NCBI RefSeq assembly: GCF_000763575.1
Contig: NZ_CP009170.1
Coordinates: 1,203,501 to 1,267,500 of the forward strand
Direction: 5' to 3'
Origin: Thermoanaerobacter kivui
GTDB taxonomy: Bacteria; Bacillota; Thermoanaerobacteria; Thermoanaerobacterales; Thermoanaerobacteraceae
DNA: 64,000 nt
The notes below the pieces were generated by a model. It saw nothing but the letters and a program-made list of their open reading frames with translations. It was not told where the DNA came from and did no database searches. Position 1 is the stretch's first letter; every line of letters starts with the position of its first letter. The translations under genes were made by a program, and so were the position numbers. This document shows, one piece after another, positions 1,392 through 26,511 of the stretch.

Positions 1392-2612
1392 ATGAAAAAA
1401 GTATTTGTAATAGGCGGCGGAGCAGCTGGAATGATGGCAGCATTATCTGCGGCAATGAAGGGGAAAGATGTAAGCATATTTGAAAGAAATAATATTTTAG
1501 GTAAGAAATTATTGGTTACAGGTAATGGAAGGTGCAACATAACCAACTTTGCTGATAAAGAAGAATTTTTTGAGAATGTTCCAGGTAATAGTAAGTTTTT
1601 GTACAGTGCTTTTAGCAAATTCTCCAACAAGGATTTAATAGAATTTTTAAATGCTTACGGTCTTAAAACAAAAGTAGAAATGGGGTTGAGGGTTTTCCCT
1701 GTATCTGACAAATCCGTCGAAGTGAGAGATTTTTTTGTTAATATGCTTAATAAATATCATGTGAAAATTAATTATAACTCCAGAGTAAGTGATATAAAAG
1801 TGGAAAATGGGTGTGTAAAAGGGATAGTTGTAAATGAGAAATTTCTTAGTTGTGATAGGGTGATATTAGCCACAGGAGGTCTGTCCTATCCTACTACAGG
1901 ATGTACAGGAGACGGGTATGAAATTGCAAGAAAGTTGGGCCATACCATTATCGAGCCTTTTCCTTCTTTAGTGCCAATGGTAACTGAGGAGGATGTAAAA
2001 GAACTTATGGGACTTACTTTAAAAAATGTCAAAGTGGCTGCTTATGCTGGTCAAAAACTTATAAAAGAAGAGTTTGGAGAGATGCTCTTTACTCATTTTG
2101 GATTATCAGGACCAGTGATATTGACTTTAAGCAGGTTCATCCATGATTATTTAAATAGAGATGATTTGATGATTAGAATAGATTTGAAACCAGCTTTGAG
2201 TTTAGAAAAATTAGAAGAGAGATTATTGAGAGATTTTAACAAAAATCTCAATAAAAACTTAAAAAACGCTTTAGAAGTCCTGTTGCCTCACTCTTTAATC
2301 CCTTGTATTATAACTAGATCTAACATAAGTCCTGACAAAAAAGTGAGAGATGTCACTAAAAAAGAGAGAAAAGAACTATTATACAATCTAAAAAACCTCA
2401 CTTTTAAAATAAAAAAGCTAAGGCCTATAAGGGAAGCTATAGTAACAGCAGGGGGTATAAGTACAAAAGAAATAAACCCCTCTACTATGGAATCAAAAAT
2501 AGTCAAAGGACTATTCTTTGCAGGAGAAATTATAGATGTTGATGGTTTGACAGGAGGTTTTAATCTTCAGATTGCTTTTTCTACAGGATATGTAGCTGGA
2601 ATAAATGCATAA
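1392..2612 (+). CDS. BaiN/HI0933-type NAD(P)/FAD-dependent oxidoreductase
   Basis: 406 residues. The N-terminus MKKVFVIGGGAAGMMAA is a dinucleotide-binding GxGxxG Rossmann motif for FAD. It is followed by GNGRCNITN, a second signature of the HI0933/YhiN (BaiN, RdsA) family, and the C-terminal GGISTKEI and GLFFAGEIIDVDGLTGGFNLQ blocks close the FAD site. Members are soluble flavoproteins; some reduce bile-acid enones, and the role in most bacteria is unknown. The frame is open upstream to a TTG at 1362, but ATG at 1392 starts exactly at the conserved N-terminus. AAGGAG lies at 1371-1376, which is a rather long spacer. The gene follows the phosphatase with no real gap and ends at a strong terminator. 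Confidence 0.9.
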   Translation: MKKVFVIGGGAAGMMAALSAAMKGKDVSIFERNNILGKKLLVTGNGRCNITNFADKEEFFENVPGNSKFLYSAFSKFSNKDLIEFLNAYGLKTKVEMGLRVFPVSDKSVEVRDFFVNMLNKYHVKINYNSRVSDIKVENGCVKGIVVNEKFLSCDRVILATGGLSYPTTGCTGDGYEIARKLGHTIIEPFPSLVPMVTEEDVKELMGLTLKNVKVAAYAGQKLIKEEFGEMLFTHFGLSGPVILTLSRFIHDYLNRDDLMIRIDLKPALSLEKLEERLLRDFNKNLNKNLKNALEVLLPHSLIPCIITRSNISPDKKVRDVTKKERKELLYNLKNLTFKIKKLRPIREAIVTAGGISTKEINPSTMESKIVKGLFFAGEIIDVDGLTGGFNLQIAFSTGYVAGINA

Positions 2613-2613
2613 A

Positions 2614-2642
2614 TAAAAAAATGCGGGAAACCGCATTTTTTT
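2614..2642 (+). terminator. Rho-independent terminator after the flavoprotein gene
   Basis: Stem AAAAAATGCGG / CCGCATTTTTT with a GAAA tetraloop, merging into a T-run. It begins directly after the stop codon at 2612. Confidence 0.9.
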
Positions 2643-2685
2643 ATTTATTTTGCATAATATATAATACAAGAAAAGGAGGATAAAT

Positions 2686-3147
2686 ATGGGAAGAAGAGCA
2701 AAAAGAAAAAAATATCGCTACATTTACAGTGAGACTATACTGGTGGTCTTGATAATGTTAGGGCTTTTAAGCATTGCCATAACGCAACTTTTGATGACAA
2801 ATGATGATATAAGAGTTTTTTTAAATTCTACGGAAAGATTAGAAGGTATCAATCTGAACTCCAATCTTTCAAAAGAAGGCAGTATCACAATAGAAGTTAT
2901 AGAAAAAGATAAAGCTTTGAATTCTTTTGTGTTGTTGGATGGTGAACCTGTGACAAATTTTCCTACAAAGTCTGTTAATGTCATTGTAAAGCCAAATCAA
3001 ATCCTTGAAATAGATGGTACTCAAGAAGACCAACCCTTGCATTTTAAAATTGTAAATACCAGTGACAATGTGATAGAGCCACAAAATACAGCCGTCGTGA
3101 AAGTCGATAGAAATATCCAGAAGATATGCATGGTAAAGCTAAAGTAA
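2686..3147 (+). CDS. Hypothetical single-pass membrane protein
   Basis: 153 residues. A basic N-terminus (RRAKRKKYRY) precedes one hydrophobic segment at about residues 18-40, followed by about 110 soluble residues. By the positive-inside rule the C-terminal domain should be outside the membrane. I recognise no domain. The tail is rich in beta-prone sequence and has no cysteine motif or catalytic signature. AAAGGAGG ends nine bases before the ATG at 2686, a strong ribosome binding site. It lies alone between the terminator at 2614-2642 and the aroH promoter, so it is probably its own transcription unit. A cell-envelope or sporulation accessory role would be a guess. Confidence 0.75.
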   Translation: MGRRAKRKKYRYIYSETILVVLIMLGLLSIAITQLLMTNDDIRVFLNSTERLEGINLNSNLSKEGSITIEVIEKDKALNSFVLLDGEPVTNFPTKSVNVIVKPNQILEIDGTQEDQPLHFKIVNTSDNVIEPQNTAVVKVDRNIQKICMVKLK

Positions 3148-3156
3148 AATAAAATA

Positions 3157-3185
3157 TTGTTATATGTCTTATTATGCTATATAAT
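3157..3185 (+). promoter_or_regulatory. Sigma-A-type promoter for the aroH operon
   Basis: TTGTTA at 3157-3162, a 17-base spacer and TATAAT at 3180-3185, about 40 bases before the aroH start. Confidence 0.65.
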
Positions 3186-3224
3186 ATTTAACAAAGGACA
3201 AACAAAAAGAGAGGAGAATGCCAT

Positions 3225-3572
3225 ATTAAAACCATAAGAGGAGCAATTACTACTAAAAATACGAGGGAAGATATTTTAACTGACACTACCATCCTCATCA
3301 AAGAAATTATTGAAGTTAACAAACTTAAAGAAAGGGACATAATCTCTATTTTTTTTAGTGCTACTAAAGATTTAGACGCAGCGTATCCTGCTGAAGCAGT
3401 GAGAAATATGGGAATTACTTCTGTTCCTATGATGTGTTTCCAAGAGATGGACGTAAAAGGAAGTCTTTCTCACTGCATAAGGGTAATGCTCCTTATAAAC
3501 TGCGATGAGGAAAAAGAAATAAAGCATGTTTACTTAAAAGATACCAAAAAATTAAGACCGGATTTAGTTTGA
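3225..3572 (+). CDS. aroH: Chorismate mutase, AroH class, with apparent ATT start
   Basis: 115 residues if started at ATT 3225. It converts chorismate to prephenate for Phe/Tyr synthesis and works as a cytosolic trimer. The protein opens (M)KTIRGAITTKNT and carries CFQEMDVKGSL, HCIRVM, HVYL and LRPDL. These match Bacillus AroH and include the active-site Arg near residue 5, Glu in QEMDV, Arg in CIRVM and Tyr in HVYL. No ATG, GTG or TTG lies in frame between the stop at 3189 and the conserved N-terminus; the ATG at 3218 is out of frame and stops after three codons. AGAGGAG at 3210-3216 is eight bases before ATT 3225, so ATT is the most economical start. A sequencing error is the alternative. 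First gene of the aroH-cmk-plsC-ispH-rpsA run. Confidence 0.88.
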   Translation: MKTIRGAITTKNTREDILTDTTILIKEIIEVNKLKERDIISIFFSATKDLDAAYPAEAVRNMGITSVPMMCFQEMDVKGSLSHCIRVMLLINCDEEKEIKHVYLKDTKKLRPDLV

Positions 3573-3582
3573 GGTGAGAGAT

Positions 3583-4248
3583 TTGACGATAAAAATTGCA
3601 ATAGACGGACCTGCAGGAGCTGGTAAAAGTACAGTCGCCAAAAAATTAGCCAATCTTTTAAATTTCACTTATATTGACACAGGAGCTATGTATAGAGCCA
3701 TTACTTATAAAGTTATAAAAGAAGGAATTGACTTAAAAGAGGAAGACAAAATAGCTGAAATTGCGAAAAATTCTAGTATAACTTTGGAAGGAGAAAAAAT
3801 CTTTTTGGATGGGAAAGACGTTTCCTATGAAATAAGAAGGCCTGAAGTTTCTGAAAAAGTTTCTTATGTCTCTAAAATAAAAAAAGTAAGGGAAATTCTA
3901 GTAGAAAAACAAAGAGCTATTGCTGAAGGTAAAAATGTAGTTATGGACGGAAGAGACATAGCTACTGTTGTGTTGCCAGATGCCCAATTTAAATTTTTTT
4001 TGACAGCCTCTTTAGCAGAGAGAGCCAAAAGGCGATATAATGAACTTAAATCTAAAAATTTACAAATTGACTATCTTAAGGTACTGGAAGACATAAAAAA
4101 CCGCGATAAAATGGACTCTCAACGAAAAGAATCACCTCTTAAACACACTGATGAATCTATAGTTATTGACACTACCTATCTTTCAGAACAACAAGTTTTA
4201 GATAAACTTTACAATATCGTAAAGGAAGGATTAAAAGGGGATATTTGA
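3583..4248 (+). CDS. cmk: Cytidylate kinase
   Basis: 221 residues; phosphorylates CMP and dCMP with ATP in the cytosol. The P-loop IAIDGPAGAGKSTVAKKLA lies at the N-terminus, followed by FTYIDTGAMYRAIT, DGRDIATVVLPDA and the lid region RAKRRYNEL, all typical of bacterial Cmk. The frame opens at GTG 3574, but that codon lies inside the Shine-Dalgarno GAGGTGA (3571-3577); TTG at 3583, five bases downstream, is the better start. It follows aroH by ten bases and its stop overlaps the start region of plsC. The order cmk-plsC-ispH-rpsA is usual in clostridia. Confidence 0.95.
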   Translation: MTIKIAIDGPAGAGKSTVAKKLANLLNFTYIDTGAMYRAITYKVIKEGIDLKEEDKIAEIAKNSSITLEGEKIFLDGKDVSYEIRRPEVSEKVSYVSKIKKVREILVEKQRAIAEGKNVVMDGRDIATVVLPDAQFKFFLTASLAERAKRRYNELKSKNLQIDYLKVLEDIKNRDKMDSQRKESPLKHTDESIVIDTTYLSEQQVLDKLYNIVKEGLKGDI

Positions 4249-4250
4249 CT

Positions 4251-4829
4251 ATGTTTTACTATATTGCCAAGTACATAGTGCGCTTCATTATAAAAATAAT
4301 TTTTAGAATAGAAGTCAAAGGACTTGAAAATATACCTAAAAAAGGTCCAGTAATCATATGTCCAAACCACATAAGTCTGCTGGACCCACCTGTTATAGGA
4401 GCGCTGTTGAATAGACGAATATATTTTATGGCTAAAGAAGAGCTTTTTAGAAACCCTTTTTTAAAGCTTCTTTTAGGTAAAGGTTTAGGGGCTTTCCCTG
4501 TAAAAAGAGGTACAGCGGATTTATCAGCTATTAAAACTGCCTTAAATTATTTAAAGAAAGGCCAAGCTGTTGGAATTTTTCCTGAAGGGACAAGGAGCAA
4601 AACGGGGAAGCTTCAAAAAGCTGAATCAGGAGTTTCTCTTTTGGCAGTAAAAGGACATGCTGTAGTTGTCCCTGTTGGGATAAAAGGGAAATATCGTCTT
4701 TTTTCTAAAATAACTATAAGCATTGGAAAGCCTATAAGCTTTGAAAAATACGCTGGTTCAAAACTTTCTTCACAAGAACTTTCTTTGATTGGGGAAGAAA
4801 TAATGAAAGAAATTGCCAAGTTACTGTAG
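4251..4829 (+). CDS. plsC: 1-acyl-sn-glycerol-3-phosphate acyltransferase
   Basis: 192 residues. It adds the second acyl chain to lysophosphatidic acid at the inner face of the membrane. The catalytic HxxxxD box is CPNHISLLDPP (about residues 38-48), and the substrate-binding FPEGTRS block lies near residue 110. The hydrophobic, basic N-terminus (YIAKYIVRFIIKIIF) suits membrane association. Length is normal for the short PlsC form. Start choice is uncertain: TTG 4245 overlaps the cmk stop, four bases after AAGGGG, while ATG 4251 is ten bases away. Translational coupling with cmk is likely either way. Confidence 0.93.
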   Translation: MFYYIAKYIVRFIIKIIFRIEVKGLENIPKKGPVIICPNHISLLDPPVIGALLNRRIYFMAKEELFRNPFLKLLLGKGLGAFPVKRGTADLSAIKTALNYLKKGQAVGIFPEGTRSKTGKLQKAESGVSLLAVKGHAVVVPVGIKGKYRLFSKITISIGKPISFEKYAGSKLSSQELSLIGEEIMKEIAKLL

Positions 4830-4839
4830 GAGGTCAAAA

Positions 4840-5706
4840 ATGAAAATATTGATTGCTGAGTATGCAGGGTTTTGCTTTGGGGTAAAAAGAGCCATTGAAA
4901 CTGCATACCAAGAAATTGAAAAAAATAAAAAAGGTAAAATTTATACTTTAGGAGAAATCATACACAATCCTCTGGTAATAGATGACTTATTTAAAAAAGG
5001 TGTTAAAGTCATTGAAGAAAAGGATTTAGAAAAACTATCAAAGGGAGATAAACTAATAATCCGCACTCATGGAGTTTCAAAGAAGTTATACGATTTCTTA
5101 ACTGAGAGAGAAGTAGAAATTATAGATGTGACATGTCCTTTTGTAAAAAAAGTTCAAAATATAGTGTACGAGTATTATAACAAAGGATATTCTATTATAA
5201 TAGTAGGCGACAAAAATCATCCAGAAGTGATAGGTGTAAATGGATGGTGTGATAATACGGCTTATGTGTTAAATTCAATTGAAGAGGCGAAAAAAATGCC
5301 TCAACTAAAAAAAGCTTGTGCTGTCGCACAGACCACTCTTATTGAAAAACACTGGGAAAAAATTTTAGAAGTTATTAACACAAAAGTTGAAGACCTTATT
5401 TTTTTTAATACCATTTGTGATGCTACTCAAAAAAGGCAAAGTGCAGCAGAAGAATTGGCTAAAAAAGTGGAAGTAATGTTGGTAATTGGGGGAAAACACA
5501 GTTCAAATACCCAAAAGCTTAAAAAAATCTGTGAAAGAAATTGTAAAAATACTTTTCACATAGAGGCCCCAAAGGAATTGACTTTGGATATGATAAAAGA
5601 GCATGAAATTATCGGTGTTACAGCAGGGGCTTCCACACCGGATTATGTCATAGAAGATGTTCTAAAAAGAATTAAAATTTTAAAAGGGGAAGATAAAAAT
5701 GAGTGA
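4840..5706 (+). CDS. ispH: 4-hydroxy-3-methylbut-2-enyl diphosphate reductase (IspH/LytB)
   Basis: 288 residues. It catalyses the last step of the MEP isoprenoid pathway, reducing HMBPP to IPP and DMAPP with a 4Fe-4S cluster. The three cluster cysteines are visible in GFCFGVKRA, DVTCPFVKK and NTICDATQKRQ; the catalytic Glu region HSSNTQKL and the C-terminal TAGASTPDYVIE are also present. ATG 4840 follows AGGAGG closely, so the longer frame from 4813 is rejected. In many clostridia IspH is fused to ribosomal protein S1; here the two are separate, but the stop codon overlaps the rpsA start. dxr and ispG of the same pathway lie at the other end of the window. Confidence 0.96.
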   Translation: MKILIAEYAGFCFGVKRAIETAYQEIEKNKKGKIYTLGEIIHNPLVIDDLFKKGVKVIEEKDLEKLSKGDKLIIRTHGVSKKLYDFLTEREVEIIDVTCPFVKKVQNIVYEYYNKGYSIIIVGDKNHPEVIGVNGWCDNTAYVLNSIEEAKKMPQLKKACAVAQTTLIEKHWEKILEVINTKVEDLIFFNTICDATQKRQSAAEELAKKVEVMLVIGGKHSSNTQKLKKICERNCKNTFHIEAPKELTLDMIKEHEIIGVTAGASTPDYVIEDVLKRIKILKGEDKNE

Positions 5707-6796
5707 TTTTTTAGAAGATTATAGTTTTAAAATTGTGCGAACTGGCGACATTGTAAAAGGAAAAGTCATAAGAGTTTCTGATGAGGGAGTTATCGCAAAC
5801 ATCGGTTACAAATCTGACGCATTTGTTCCTAAAAATGAACTGTCATTGAATCCTAATTTTGATGTTAAAAAAGTCTTTAATATTGACGACGAGTTAGATT
5901 TGTATATAATAAATGTGGAAAATGAAGAAGGAAATGTGTTGGCTTCTAAAGTCATGGCAGATCAACAGCTTAGTAAAGAAAAACTTCAAAAAGCCTATGA
6001 AAATAGCGATATTTTAGAAGGGGAAGTTATTGAAGTAGTAAAAGGCGGTGTTATTGCTTATATATTAGGAGTAAAAGTTTTTATTCCAGCTTCTCAACTG
6101 GAACTACATTATGTCGATAATTTAGATGAATATTTAGGTAAAACTGTGCGCATTAAAATAATTGAATACATTCCAAATAAAAAGATAATAGCTTCTCAAA
6201 AAGAAGTGCTAAAATCAGAAAAAGAGGAAGCCAAAAAGCGCTTACTGTCTACTTTGAAAGAAGGAGATATTGTAGAAGGTGTAGTAAAAAATGTTGTAAA
6301 TTACGGTACTTTTGTTGATATCGGCGGTTTTGAAGGACTTATCCCTTTAAGAGAAATGGCATGGGGAAAAATTAAAGACCCGAATGAAATATTAAAAGTT
6401 GGCGATAAAGTTTCAACTTATGTGCTGGGTGTGGATGAAAAAAATGAAAAAGTCACTTTAAGCCTTAGAAAAGTAATGCCTGACCCCTGGGAGGAAGTAG
6501 AACAAAAATACAATGTGGGAGATGTTTTAAAAGGCACGATAACTAACATTACACACTTTGGAGTATTTGTTCAAATAGAGCCAGGAGTAGAAGGATTAGT
6601 TCATAAGAACAATTTAGAAAATAGTATCAAAAAGTATGCAATAAATGATATTATGAATGTAGAGATACTGTCTATAAATCCTAAGGAAAAGAAAATAAGT
6701 TTTAGGGAAGTGCCTCTAGAAGAAGAAGATATTCCAGAAATTGAGCATCAAGAGCTTACTATAAGACTGGGAGAAATAATCAATAAAAATATTTAA
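5699..6796 (+). CDS. rpsA: S1-domain RNA-binding protein (ribosomal protein S1 homologue)
   Basis: 365 residues made of four S1/OB repeats, roughly at residues 14-84, 101-166, 187-255 and 272-340. Each has the G(x)VxGxV opening and the later GGFEGLIPL or PGVEGLVH turn, for example GTFVDIGGFEGLI and GVFVQIEPGVEGLV. It is shorter than the six-repeat proteobacterial S1 and matches the Firmicute form, which may help load mRNA or act in RNA turnover. The ATG overlaps the end of ispH by eight bases, so translation is probably coupled. The last two repeats are the most canonical. Confidence 0.9.
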   Translation: MSDFLEDYSFKIVRTGDIVKGKVIRVSDEGVIANIGYKSDAFVPKNELSLNPNFDVKKVFNIDDELDLYIINVENEEGNVLASKVMADQQLSKEKLQKAYENSDILEGEVIEVVKGGVIAYILGVKVFIPASQLELHYVDNLDEYLGKTVRIKIIEYIPNKKIIASQKEVLKSEKEEAKKRLLSTLKEGDIVEGVVKNVVNYGTFVDIGGFEGLIPLREMAWGKIKDPNEILKVGDKVSTYVLGVDEKNEKVTLSLRKVMPDPWEEVEQKYNVGDVLKGTITNITHFGVFVQIEPGVEGLVHKNNLENSIKKYAINDIMNVEILSINPKEKKISFREVPLEEEDIPEIEHQELTIRLGEIINKNI

Positions 6797-6815
6797 ATCT
6801 GTCATGTAAAAAACC

Positions 6816-6843
6816 TTGACAAAAGAAAAAAATCTGATAAAAT
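6816..6843 (+). promoter_or_regulatory. Strong extended -10 promoter for speD
   Basis: TTGACA at 6816-6821, a 16-base spacer and TAAAAT at 6838-6843 preceded by TGA, the extended -10 TGn element. The speD start is about 50 bases downstream of the -10 element. Confidence 0.8.
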
Positions 6844-6896
6844 TTAAATCATTGAATGTATACAATTATTTTTAGTAAAGGAGGCAGGATACCAGA

Positions 6897-7271
6897 ATGA
6901 ATGCTTTGGGTCGCCATATTTTGGCAGAAATTTATGGGTGCGATAGCGACATACTAGACAACTTGGAATTAATTGAAGACATAATGGTACAATCTGCAAT
7001 AGTTACAGGTGCAGAAATACGAGAAGTTGCTTTCCATAAATTTAGCCCCCAGGGCGTAAGCGGAGTAGTAGTCATATCAGAATCGCATATAACAATCCAT
7101 ACCTGGCCTGAATTAGGCTATGCCGCGGTTGATGTATTCACTTGTGGAGATAATGTTAATCCGTGGGATGCCTGCAATTATATAGCTAAAATGTTGAAAG
7201 CAAAGAACATGACAGCTACAGAAGTTAAACGAGGAGTATTTGAAAAACCTGTTAAGGTGGTAAACTTCTAA
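6897..7271 (+). CDS. speD: S-adenosylmethionine decarboxylase proenzyme, class 1B
   Basis: 124 residues. It decarboxylates AdoMet to give the aminopropyl donor for spermidine synthesis. The proenzyme self-cleaves between Glu62 and Ser63 in the SESHITIHTWPE motif, turning Ser63 into the pyruvoyl cofactor; His68 and Cys83 (in DVFTCGDN) are the usual processing and catalytic residues. Length is standard for the short Gram-positive and archaeal form. AAAGGAGG lies upstream of the ATG. It has its own promoter (6816-6843) and terminator (7362-7386), so it is monocistronic; no speE lies in the window. Confidence 0.97.
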   Translation: MNALGRHILAEIYGCDSDILDNLELIEDIMVQSAIVTGAEIREVAFHKFSPQGVSGVVVISESHITIHTWPELGYAAVDVFTCGDNVNPWDACNYIAKMLKAKNMTATEVKRGVFEKPVKVVNF

Positions 7272-24148: not shown

Positions 24149-24928
24149 TTATGCATAATTTTTATTAATGCGCTTTATGCTATTGCATTTTCCTGTGGCT
24201 TCATCAACAGAAATTACAATGGCGTTTATTTGGGTGGAGCCTTTTGCCACTTCAAACCGTACAGGTATAGAAGATATAAATTTTTTAATAATTAATTCTT
24301 TGTCAATTCCCAATATAGATTCACTGGGTCCAGTCATTCCCACATCCGTAATATAAGCTGTCCCTTGAGGAAGAATTTTTTCGTCTGCTGTTTGCACATG
24401 AGTGTGAGTTCCATATACACAGCTTACTTTTCCATCCAAAAAATATCCCATTGCTATCTTTTCAGAAGTGGCTTCTGCATGAAAATCCACTAATATTGTG
24501 TTTGTTTCTTTTTTTAATTTTTCTATTTCTTCCAAAGCTACGAAAAAAGGATTTCTGTTACAAGGCATAAAAGTAGTACCTTGTAAATTTATAATGCCTA
24601 TTTTAGCATTTCTAAAAGTAAGTACTACAGAGCCTCTGCCAGGAGTACCTTCTAAATAATTGGCAGGCCTTACTATTCTAACTTCTTCATCGATGAATTT
24701 CAGTATTTCTTTTTGGTCCCACACGTGATTTCCCATCGTTAAAGCTAAAATTCCCATTTCAAAAAGCTCATCAGCAACTTTGCGAGTAATGCCATTCCCC
24801 CCTGCAGCATTTTCTCCATTAGCAATGACTGCATCAACACTGTACTCCGAAATCAATTCATTTAAGTGCTCTTTTAATACATTTCTTCCTGGTCTTCCTA
24901 CAATATCTCCAATTATAAGTATATTCAT
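24149..24928 (-). CDS. ymdB: YmdB-type metallophosphoesterase
   Basis: 259 residues. Calcineurin-like motifs: IIGDIVGRPGRN, VIANGENAAGGNG, LTMGNHVWDQKE, VDFHAEATSEKIAMG and GTHTHVQTAD, all of the TIGR00282 family. B. subtilis YmdB hydrolyses 2',3'-cyclic nucleotides and controls the motility/biofilm switch. The ATG is directly preceded by AAGG with almost no spacer, and the transposable element ends only about 12-15 bases upstream, so the native leader has probably been replaced by the insertion. It would normally be cotranscribed with rny. Confidence 0.94.
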   Translation of the reverse strand: MNILIIGDIVGRPGRNVLKEHLNELISEYSVDAVIANGENAAGGNGITRKVADELFEMGILALTMGNHVWDQKEILKFIDEEVRIVRPANYLEGTPGRGSVVLTFRNAKIGIINLQGTTFMPCNRNPFFVALEEIEKLKKETNTILVDFHAEATSEKIAMGYFLDGKVSCVYGTHTHVQTADEKILPQGTAYITDVGMTGPSESILGIDKELIIKKFISSIPVRFEVAKGSTQINAIVISVDEATGKCNSIKRINKNYA

Positions 24929-24942
24929 CCTTAACCTGGTTA

Positions 24943-25075
24943 CCCAAACTGTGCAAAACTGTGCAGTTTGGGCAGCTAGGGTATTTGTAGTCCGCCCTTC
25001 AGACTTTCCCAGCCCCAGCAGGCGGTTTTTGGGAAAGCCATAGCCCCTGCCCCAAGAAGCAGGAACTCACGCCCT
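24943..25075 (-). ncRNA. Probable omega/reRNA at the right end of the IS607 element
   Basis: About 130 bases downstream of the tnpB stop, much richer in G and C than the surroundings, with no ORF. On the - strand it offers nested pairings: CCTGC/GCAGG, CTTTCCCA/TGGGAAAG, CCGCC/GGCGG (possible pseudoknot) and a terminal hairpin CCCAAACTG/CAGTTTGGG at 24943-24972. TnpB systems make a guide RNA from exactly this position, with the guide taken from the flanking DNA. Here the flank is the start of ymdB. Confidence 0.5.
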
Positions 25076-26511
25076 TACGGGTCTCCCCACTTGCCCTGAA
25101 TTAATAATCCTTTCAGGGCAGAGAAGTCTCTTGGCACCTTCTCAGGGGAGAGTGGCGTTACCACCGCTACCTTGAGAACTCGCCAGAAATCATGGGCACT
25201 AAAACTTGTTCCATCCAGAGGTTTTAGTACCCTTCCTGGCTCACTCTCAAGGCTTTGTAAAATTTCTATTGCTTTATTTATCTCTTTTAAGTGTTTTTTC
25301 TTCAACTGCTTGTTCCTGACTGTTTTCTTTACATGCTCTTTTAATTCTTCTAATTCATCTATAGTTAGTGCGTTAAGAAACTTTATATAATTGTCTGGTA
25401 TCTTTTCTTCTCTGCCTAATCCTCTTCTTGCTATTACATAAGCTGCTGCTATGTCTTTTGTTATCATATACTGCGGCGCATATTTTAACATGCCTATTAT
25501 TGAGGTGTAAGAAGGATTGACTTCTATTACTTCTATTCCTTCCTTTTTTGCTAAAATTTTTATCTTTTTTAAAAGGGATTTGTAGCTAAAGTTATGTCTT
25601 ATTCTCCTTGACTTTTTGCCTGAAAAGTCTCCTTTTTCTCCTTTGTTTTTTATGTCTAATTTTTCAATTACTATTGCTTTTCTTTTTTCTTTTGCTATCT
25701 TTACTATCTCATGAGCATACTGCCATCTGAAATACTCTCTTTTATCTGAATTGCCGCTTGCAAGTTCCGGCATCGGTATACTGCCATAGCTTATTAGATT
25801 TCCTTTTTCATCTACCTCTGCCCATGATATGTTGTCCGGATATGCGTTCACATCTATTCCTATGATTCCTTTTTCTTTTGTTATTTTTATTTCTGGATAT
25901 TGTTCTTCAATAGCAAAATAGGCGCATATGCTGCCATTTTTGAGTTTTAGTTCTACAGAGTATGGTATGTTTGATTGGGCAATTTCCTGCAGGAGTTCTT
26001 TTCTTTTTTTATTCTTTTTGTAGCCTGCTTCTATTTTGGCGTATACATATTTTCTTTCCCCTACATTTATCCTTAAGAAAGTGCCGTTTTTTCTTACTTC
26101 TATTCTTGTGTTGAGATTTCCTTTTTTGCTTTTATCCCCTCTTGAATAGAGATTTCCTTTTCTTTTCTCCTGCCACCTAATTTTTAATTTTTTATATGCT
26201 TTACCATTTAAATGATGTTTTTGAAGTTTTCTAAACAGTTTTTTCCCGCCAAAAATGACTTTTCTTGGACTTTTACCTAGTTCTTTCGCAGATTCCAGTG
26301 TACTCCTTGCTTTCATTATTGCATCATCTACATACCTTGAGTTTAAGTCAAATATTCCCTGAAGGTCTCTTTTTAATGTTTTTCTATCATAACCTTCTAG
26401 AAGCCTTTTGTATGCGTATCTTACGCAGGATGACCATCTTCTCATTAAGTCTAATACTATTTGTTTGTCTTGTTGATTTGGAAAAATGAGTTTAGCCTGT
26501 ATCACTATCAT
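25075..26511 (-). CDS. tnpB: TnpB-family RNA-guided nuclease (IS607-associated)
   Basis: 478 residues from ATG 26511; an in-frame GTG at 26523 lies inside the Shine-Dalgarno GAGGTG. RuvC-like residues appear intact: Asp220 in IGIDVNAYPD, Glu283 in AIVIEKLDIK and Asp353 in MITKDIAAAYVIARRG. The protein has only two cysteines (about 29 and 196), so the CxxC zinc finger usually found between RuvC II and III is absent. About 125 residues follow the last RuvC motif, including an Arg/Lys-rich helix. TnpB proteins cut donor DNA under guidance of an RNA from the element's end. The start overlaps tnpA by about 20 bases, so translation is coupled. Confidence 0.9.
   Translation of the reverse strand: MIVIQAKLIFPNQQDKQIVLDLMRRWSSCVRYAYKRLLEGYDRKTLKRDLQGIFDLNSRYVDDAIMKARSTLESAKELGKSPRKVIFGGKKLFRKLQKHHLNGKAYKKLKIRWQEKRKGNLYSRGDKSKKGNLNTRIEVRKNGTFLRINVGERKYVYAKIEAGYKKNKKRKELLQEIAQSNIPYSVELKLKNGSICAYFAIEEQYPEIKITKEKGIIGIDVNAYPDNISWAEVDEKGNLISYGSIPMPELASGNSDKREYFRWQYAHEIVKIAKEKRKAIVIEKLDIKNKGEKGDFSGKKSRRIRHNFSYKSLLKKIKILAKKEGIEVIEVNPSYTSIIGMLKYAPQYMITKDIAAAYVIARRGLGREEKIPDNYIKFLNALTIDELEELKEHVKKTVRNKQLKKKHLKEINKAIEILQSLESEPGRVLKPLDGTSFSAHDFWRVLKVAVVTPLSPEKVPRDFSALKGLLIQGKWGDP

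Follow-up and report, generated by a model that had tools for sequence, protein, structure and literature searches.

Initiation at a non-AUG codon on a strong Shine-Dalgarno (SD) sequence is a known kind of translation start, described for infC, ccpN, cvfC1, and sigR. In S. aureus, ribosome profiling showed that infC and ccpN start at AUA and cvfC1 at AUU, each with an extended SD sequence. Relatives share the near-cognate starts of ccpN and cvfC1, which are proposed to keep expression low, and AUA and AUU starts of this kind give about 10 to 30% of the reporter output of AUG (PMC13009471). The GTC start of Streptomyces sigR is repressed by IF3 (PMC5472188). Where two starts lie under one strong SD, short spacing excludes the 5' start and sends initiation to the 3' one, and spacers of 2–3 nt are sufficient for this (PMC9841429). 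In a laboratory case, a single-base deletion beside a start codon was rescued by a non-standard start (PMC6397469).

The locus described here lies in a 64,000-nt stretch of Thermoanaerobacter kivui DNA, which we call the window. A first-pass annotation, made from the letters alone, had proposed that aroH begins there at an ATT codon, giving (M)KTIRGAIT. A literature search found no paper on aroH start codons in Thermoanaerobacter. The features of the start region are as follows.

3189..3191, + strand: in-frame stop TAA 5' of aroH, from translation
3208..3216, + strand: strong SD sequence AGAGAGGAG, 8 nt from AUU and 1 nt from AUG
3218..3229, + strand: out-of-frame ATG CCA TAT TAA (MPY-stop), with ATG at 3218–3220, 7 nt before ATT
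3224..3228, + strand: start codon context T-ATT-A (U at −1, A at +4), invariant in the family as T-ATW-A
3225..3572, + strand: aroH, monofunctional chorismate mutase, 115 codons, with start ATT at 3225–3227 and stop TGA at 3570–3572

The protein encoded by this frame is a complete AroH, the type I, monofunctional chorismate mutase. It matches profile TIGR01796 over positions 1–117 of 117 (E = 4e-36; 124 bits against a cut-off of 82) and Pfam CM_1 (1.5e-43; 148 bits against a cut-off of 27), and B. subtilis AroH (3zop/1com) can be aligned with it over the whole length. The alignment with 3zop shows that the residues equivalent to R7, C75, E78, R90, Y108, and R116, the active-site residues in B. 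subtilis AroH numbering, are all present. Both profiles and the alignment agree with the original description of the gene as a full AroH with all active-site residues. Chorismate mutase is required for the synthesis of tyrosine and phenylalanine. The single AroH match is the only chorismate mutase gene found in the window genome, and a search of the family genomes for an AroQ-type enzyme did not reveal a second chorismate mutase. Upstream of aroH, at 2686–3147 of the window, is an ORF of 153 aa; Pfam and NCBIfam gave no match for it, and its product probably has a single membrane segment.

Translation of the aroH frame confirmed that there is no ATG, GTG, or TTG between the stop at 3189–3191 and the conserved N-terminus. 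After this stop the frame reads QRTNKKRGEC-H-I(3225)KTIRGAIT, and the first canonical codon comes 69 codons after the stop, far within the protein. That codon would be the choice of a gene caller limited to ATG, GTG, and TTG, but the shorter protein is hardly credible as the real product, since it would begin about 58 codons inside and lose the N-terminal strand together with the active-site Arg (the R7 equivalent) that every relative retains. AGAGGAG ends at 3216, which gives the eight bases to ATT 3225–3227 that the annotation had counted; candidate ATG starts in the window have SD spacings that cluster at 6–11 nt. The SD duplex of aroH is −13.5 kcal/mol, and the best SD sites of the other window genes have a median of −10.75 kcal/mol, both with an assumed 16S tail, GAUCACCUCCUUUCU, which is the usual one in Bacillota. 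The other near-cognate codons in the stretch are AGG 3195, AAG 3207, and ATA 3234. The first two lie upstream of or within the SD region, while the third is 17 nt from the SD and would remove N-terminal residues; all three are poor candidates.

The aroH start was then compared in 20 genomes of the family, which cover three genera and about six deep lineages. Each has one AroH gene, which in a single genome, G008, is split in two pieces. An in-frame canonical start is absent from all 20. At the start position 17 have ATA and three have ATT, always as T-ATW-A; GGAG lies 8 nt from AUW in 12 of the genomes and 11 nt from it in the other eight. Eight of the nine Thermoanaerobacterium-type genomes have an in-frame stop only two codons before ATA, with only TGT and CTT or CCT between; because of this stop, a hidden canonical start is impossible in these eight. 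Among homologues from outside the family, 56 have a canonical in-frame start (40/40 sampled genomes of the phylum and 16 others). The sole exception is the metagenome-assembled genome Clostridiaceae bacterium BRH_c20a, which lacks one. Its aroH (L016:1985-2010) has ATT codons in a similar context, AGGAGAATTTATATTATTAAG, and may be a second occurrence outside the family.

Substitutions were counted on a tree of the aroH-cmk region of the family genomes. The T at −1, the A and T of the start codon, and the A at +4 show zero changes, while third codon positions have a mean of 2.9 changes and only 2.9% of them are unchanged. A one-base insertion would formally explain a displaced AUG, and one might suspect gene decay or an error made in sequencing or assembly. 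However, the arrangement is identical in 20 separate assemblies from three genera, and the body of this sole chorismate mutase gene is intact under purifying selection. These family genomes rule out the suspicion, whose probability is close to negligible. The frameshift near codon 78 that splits aroH in G008 (L010/L011) is in a draft genome with about 6% contamination and is possibly an assembly error. Alignment with the relatives bears directly on the ATT proposal: all 19 carry AUA or AUU in place of a normal start, which strongly supports it. From this comparison, aroH very probably begins at AUU, and the AUW start appears to be an old, selected arrangement and not an error.

The gene that follows aroH bears on the same point.

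3583..4248, + strand: cmk (cytidylate kinase), next gene, with a probable TTG start

In eight of the nine Thermoanaerobacterium-type relatives, aroH and cmk are fused in frame to a single frame of about 330 codons. Each family genome has one cmk above the family cut-off, and no second cmk was found in any of them. Because this frame encodes the sole chorismate mutase and, in the eight fusions, the sole cytidylate kinase, it must be translated if the organisms use these enzymes. The fusion loci are L013, L014, L022–L025, and L027–L030; the fusion also occurs in two order-level genomes (L031 and L032), with a normal ATG.

The first-pass annotation had drawn a parallel to the AUU start of infC, and this parallel holds within the same genomes.

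L084–L102: infC loci of the family, with start AUU, AGGAGGTGCGTATTTATTAAC

All 19 family genomes in which infC could be read have T-ATT-A and no usable canonical start. The start region is AGGAGG-TGCGTATTT-ATT-AAC, which places AUU about 10 nt from AGGAG.

The most unusual feature, absent from the first-pass annotation, is the out-of-frame ATG at 3218–3220, placed after the SD and before the ATT. In 20/20 family genomes it occurs exactly 7 nt before ATW, and its three positions have no substitution on the aroH-cmk tree. The triplet that follows varies (CCA, CCC, CTC, TGC, TCT, TCC, or TTC; 1, 3, and 4 changes at its positions) and is in turn followed by T-ATW. With about six deep lineages in the sample, the case for selection on this AUG(−7) is good but not overwhelming. 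In other clostridia the start of aroH is very often at −6, two codons ahead of the AUW position, so AUG(−7) looks like the old start, and it is probably the ancestral start codon put out of frame by one inserted base.

What, then, could the displaced AUG do? The distance from GGAG to AUG(−7) is 1 nt in 12 genomes and 4 nt in the eight Thermoanaerobacterium-type genomes. Because of the spacing principle for strong SDs, an AUG 1 nt from GGAG is expected to be kept out of the P site (PMC9841429). At 4 nt from the SD, AUG(−7) could compete with AUA in the eight. A role as a competing or decoy start is the likeliest one. In the AUA genomes, the AUG(−7) frame ends after 6, 12, or 27 codons, while in the three ATT genomes its stop, TAA, overlaps ATT (MxY-stop). 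In the Thermoanaerobacter clade, it is an open ORF of 27 codons with 6–7 Tyr, a content of 7 that none of 1684 control stretches reaches; the mean for the family is 5.6 Tyr, compared with 2.6 in AT-rich controls, and in other lineages the Tyr-rich frame is interrupted by stops. Examples that overlap aroH are L002:1494-1577, MPYKSHKRCYNFQKYKRRYFKGYYYSH, and other Thermoanaerobacter loci.

These features can be read as signs of a programmed +1 frameshift, in which ribosomes would start at AUG(−7) and shift into aroH while the A site, holding UAU (Tyr), waits empty. Tyrosine would be the signal, as in the logic of prfB: a shortage of Tyr-tRNA would turn chorismate mutase on, and the product would begin M-x-I-K-. 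All 20 genomes have the AUG at the same 7-nt distance and UAU as the third codon of its frame, and the Tyr-rich 27-codon ORF of the Thermoanaerobacter clade also speaks for this reading. The stimulator of prfB is an SD-like element 4 nt from the codon, and in Thermoanaerobacter-type leaders GGAG is likewise 4 nt from the second codon. However, the 1-nt spacing in 12/20 genomes is expected to exclude initiation at the AUG itself. A slippery site is not conserved at the aroH start in the 20 family genomes, as the second codon is any of seven (CCA, CCC, CUC, UGC, UCU, UCC, or UUC), most of which are non-slippery. Furthermore, UAU never changes to UAC, although Thr (ACN) is found at that residue in other AroH proteins and third positions average 2.9 changes. 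Stops close the Tyr-rich frame in the other lineages, and the Ile/Thr-rich beginning of AroH accounts for part of the Tyr richness. We consider a frameshift improbable.

The overlap of TAA and ATT in the three ATT genomes suggests termination–reinitiation instead, with AUG(−7) opening a tiny upstream ORF (Met-Pro-Tyr in the window) and ribosomes that end at UAA reinitiating at the overlapping AUU. Start–stop reinitiation at overlapping starts is known for E. coli narQ (PMC9841429). In the AUA genomes, however, two of the three ORF lengths, 12 and 27 codons, place the stop too far into aroH, and the 1-nt SD spacing puts initiation at AUG itself in doubt. We regard reinitiation as quite improbable.

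A genome-wide search for the motif RGGAG-N(1–6)-ATG-NNN-TATWA gave four matches, the same number as in the reversed control, and revealed no other gene with this arrangement. One match (G000:C1:1065494-1065510, L104) lies ahead of a transposase-like frame, which is preceded by the same AGGAGAATG-NNN-TATTA string, either by chance or as a frameshift signal of its own. Elsewhere in the window, at 24930–25200 on the − strand, a GC-richer, repeat-like stretch lies directly upstream of ymdB (frame 24152–25066). It is open in the ymdB frame but unlike coding sequence, has no Rfam match, and is possibly the end of a mobile element.

The transcription of aroH probably starts close to the gene.

3157..3185, + strand: probable aroH promoter, TTGTTA, 17 nt, TATAAT (consensus scan, 10/12 matches)

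A TATAAT-like block is found at the same place in the relatives, and the putative promoter implies a leader that is probably only about 35–40 nt long. An Rfam search of window positions 2500–7000 gave nothing beyond noise. T-box or riboswitch control of aroH was rejected, since there is no Rfam match and the leader of about 40 nt is too short. Five leaders were folded and compared with shuffled sequences; four folded no better, and the fifth had z = −1.48. The AUGUCUU/AAGACAU pairing of this fifth leader is absent from the window and from Thermoanaerobacter leaders. A conserved RNA structure at the start was rejected. Because no riboswitch, T-box, or fold was found and a promoter-like site lies about 40 nt upstream, any aroH-specific control most likely acts at transcription or at start codon selection.

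We favor, with good confidence, the proposal that aroH is translated by direct initiation at AUU/AUA on a strong SD. AUU 3225, or AUA in most relatives, would be read as methionine by fMet-tRNA to give M-K-T-I-R-G-A-I-T. An SD helix of 8–9 bp, normally spaced from AUW, would keep this codon in the P site, and the flanking U (−1) and A (+4) may extend the pairing to the initiator tRNA. AUG(−7), the presumed ancestral start, would have lost its frame when a single base was gained between this codon and the rest of the gene; with the SD too close for its efficient use in most lineages, it would be no more than a weak site for competition or positioning. Chorismate mutase would probably be expressed at a low level, which the activity of IF3 may set as for infC. 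Three points count against direct initiation. It does not need a conserved AUG(−7), although in a weaker form of the regulatory idea this AUG may be a competing start that sets the amount of aroH product. The SD of the Thermoanaerobacterium-type genomes is 4 nt from AUG and 11 nt from AUA, which favors AUG more than elsewhere. Finally, the anti-SD had to be assumed, as a pattern search did not find the 16S 3' end of the window genome.

If direct initiation is correct, the few genes with evolutionarily stable AUU or AUA starts would include one for a core biosynthetic enzyme, shared by a whole family. In Thermoanaerobacterium, where the sole cytidylate kinase lies within the fused frame, a protein that seems important would rely on AUA for its initiation. 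The displaced AUG, which never varies, is also a natural experiment on how ribosomes select a start: one codon is good but badly spaced, the other poor but well spaced. Gene-finding programs that accept only ATG, GTG, and TTG would either overlook aroH or shorten it across the family. Were the tyrosine-sensing frameshift true, synthesis of an enzyme of the tyrosine pathway would require a shift of frame at the very start of its gene.

The AUU/AUA starts of infC resemble that of aroH in being non-AUG on a strong SD with U at −1 and A at +4, in the same genomes. However, the product of infC is itself the factor that selects against the infC start codon, whereas aroH encodes a biosynthetic enzyme and has a conserved out-of-frame AUG. 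The AUA start of ccpN in S. aureus and B. subtilis and the AUU start of staphylococcal cvfC1 share with aroH a conserved codon and an extended SD; they are other genes, and their starts were mapped experimentally, while that of aroH is derived from sequence. A conserved displaced AUG is a feature of aroH that is not mentioned for ccpN and cvfC1 in the parts of the report drawn on here (PMC13009471). Like aroH, sigR has a non-canonical start across a genus, which serves translational control; its start is GTC and not AUW, and IF3 control has been demonstrated for sigR, whereas aroH is known from its sequence (PMC5472188). The AUGUG/GUGUG sites of E. coli also place two out-of-frame starts under one SD, with spacing deciding between them, but those starts overlap and are both canonical, while the aroH pair is 7 nt apart and the one apparently used is AUW (PMC9841429). 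The programmed +1 frameshift of prfB resembles aroH in that a short ORF, closely preceded by an SD-like element, is offset by +1 from the main frame. Unlike prfB, aroH has no conserved slippery codon, and it has a stop at the would-be shift site only in the ATT genomes.
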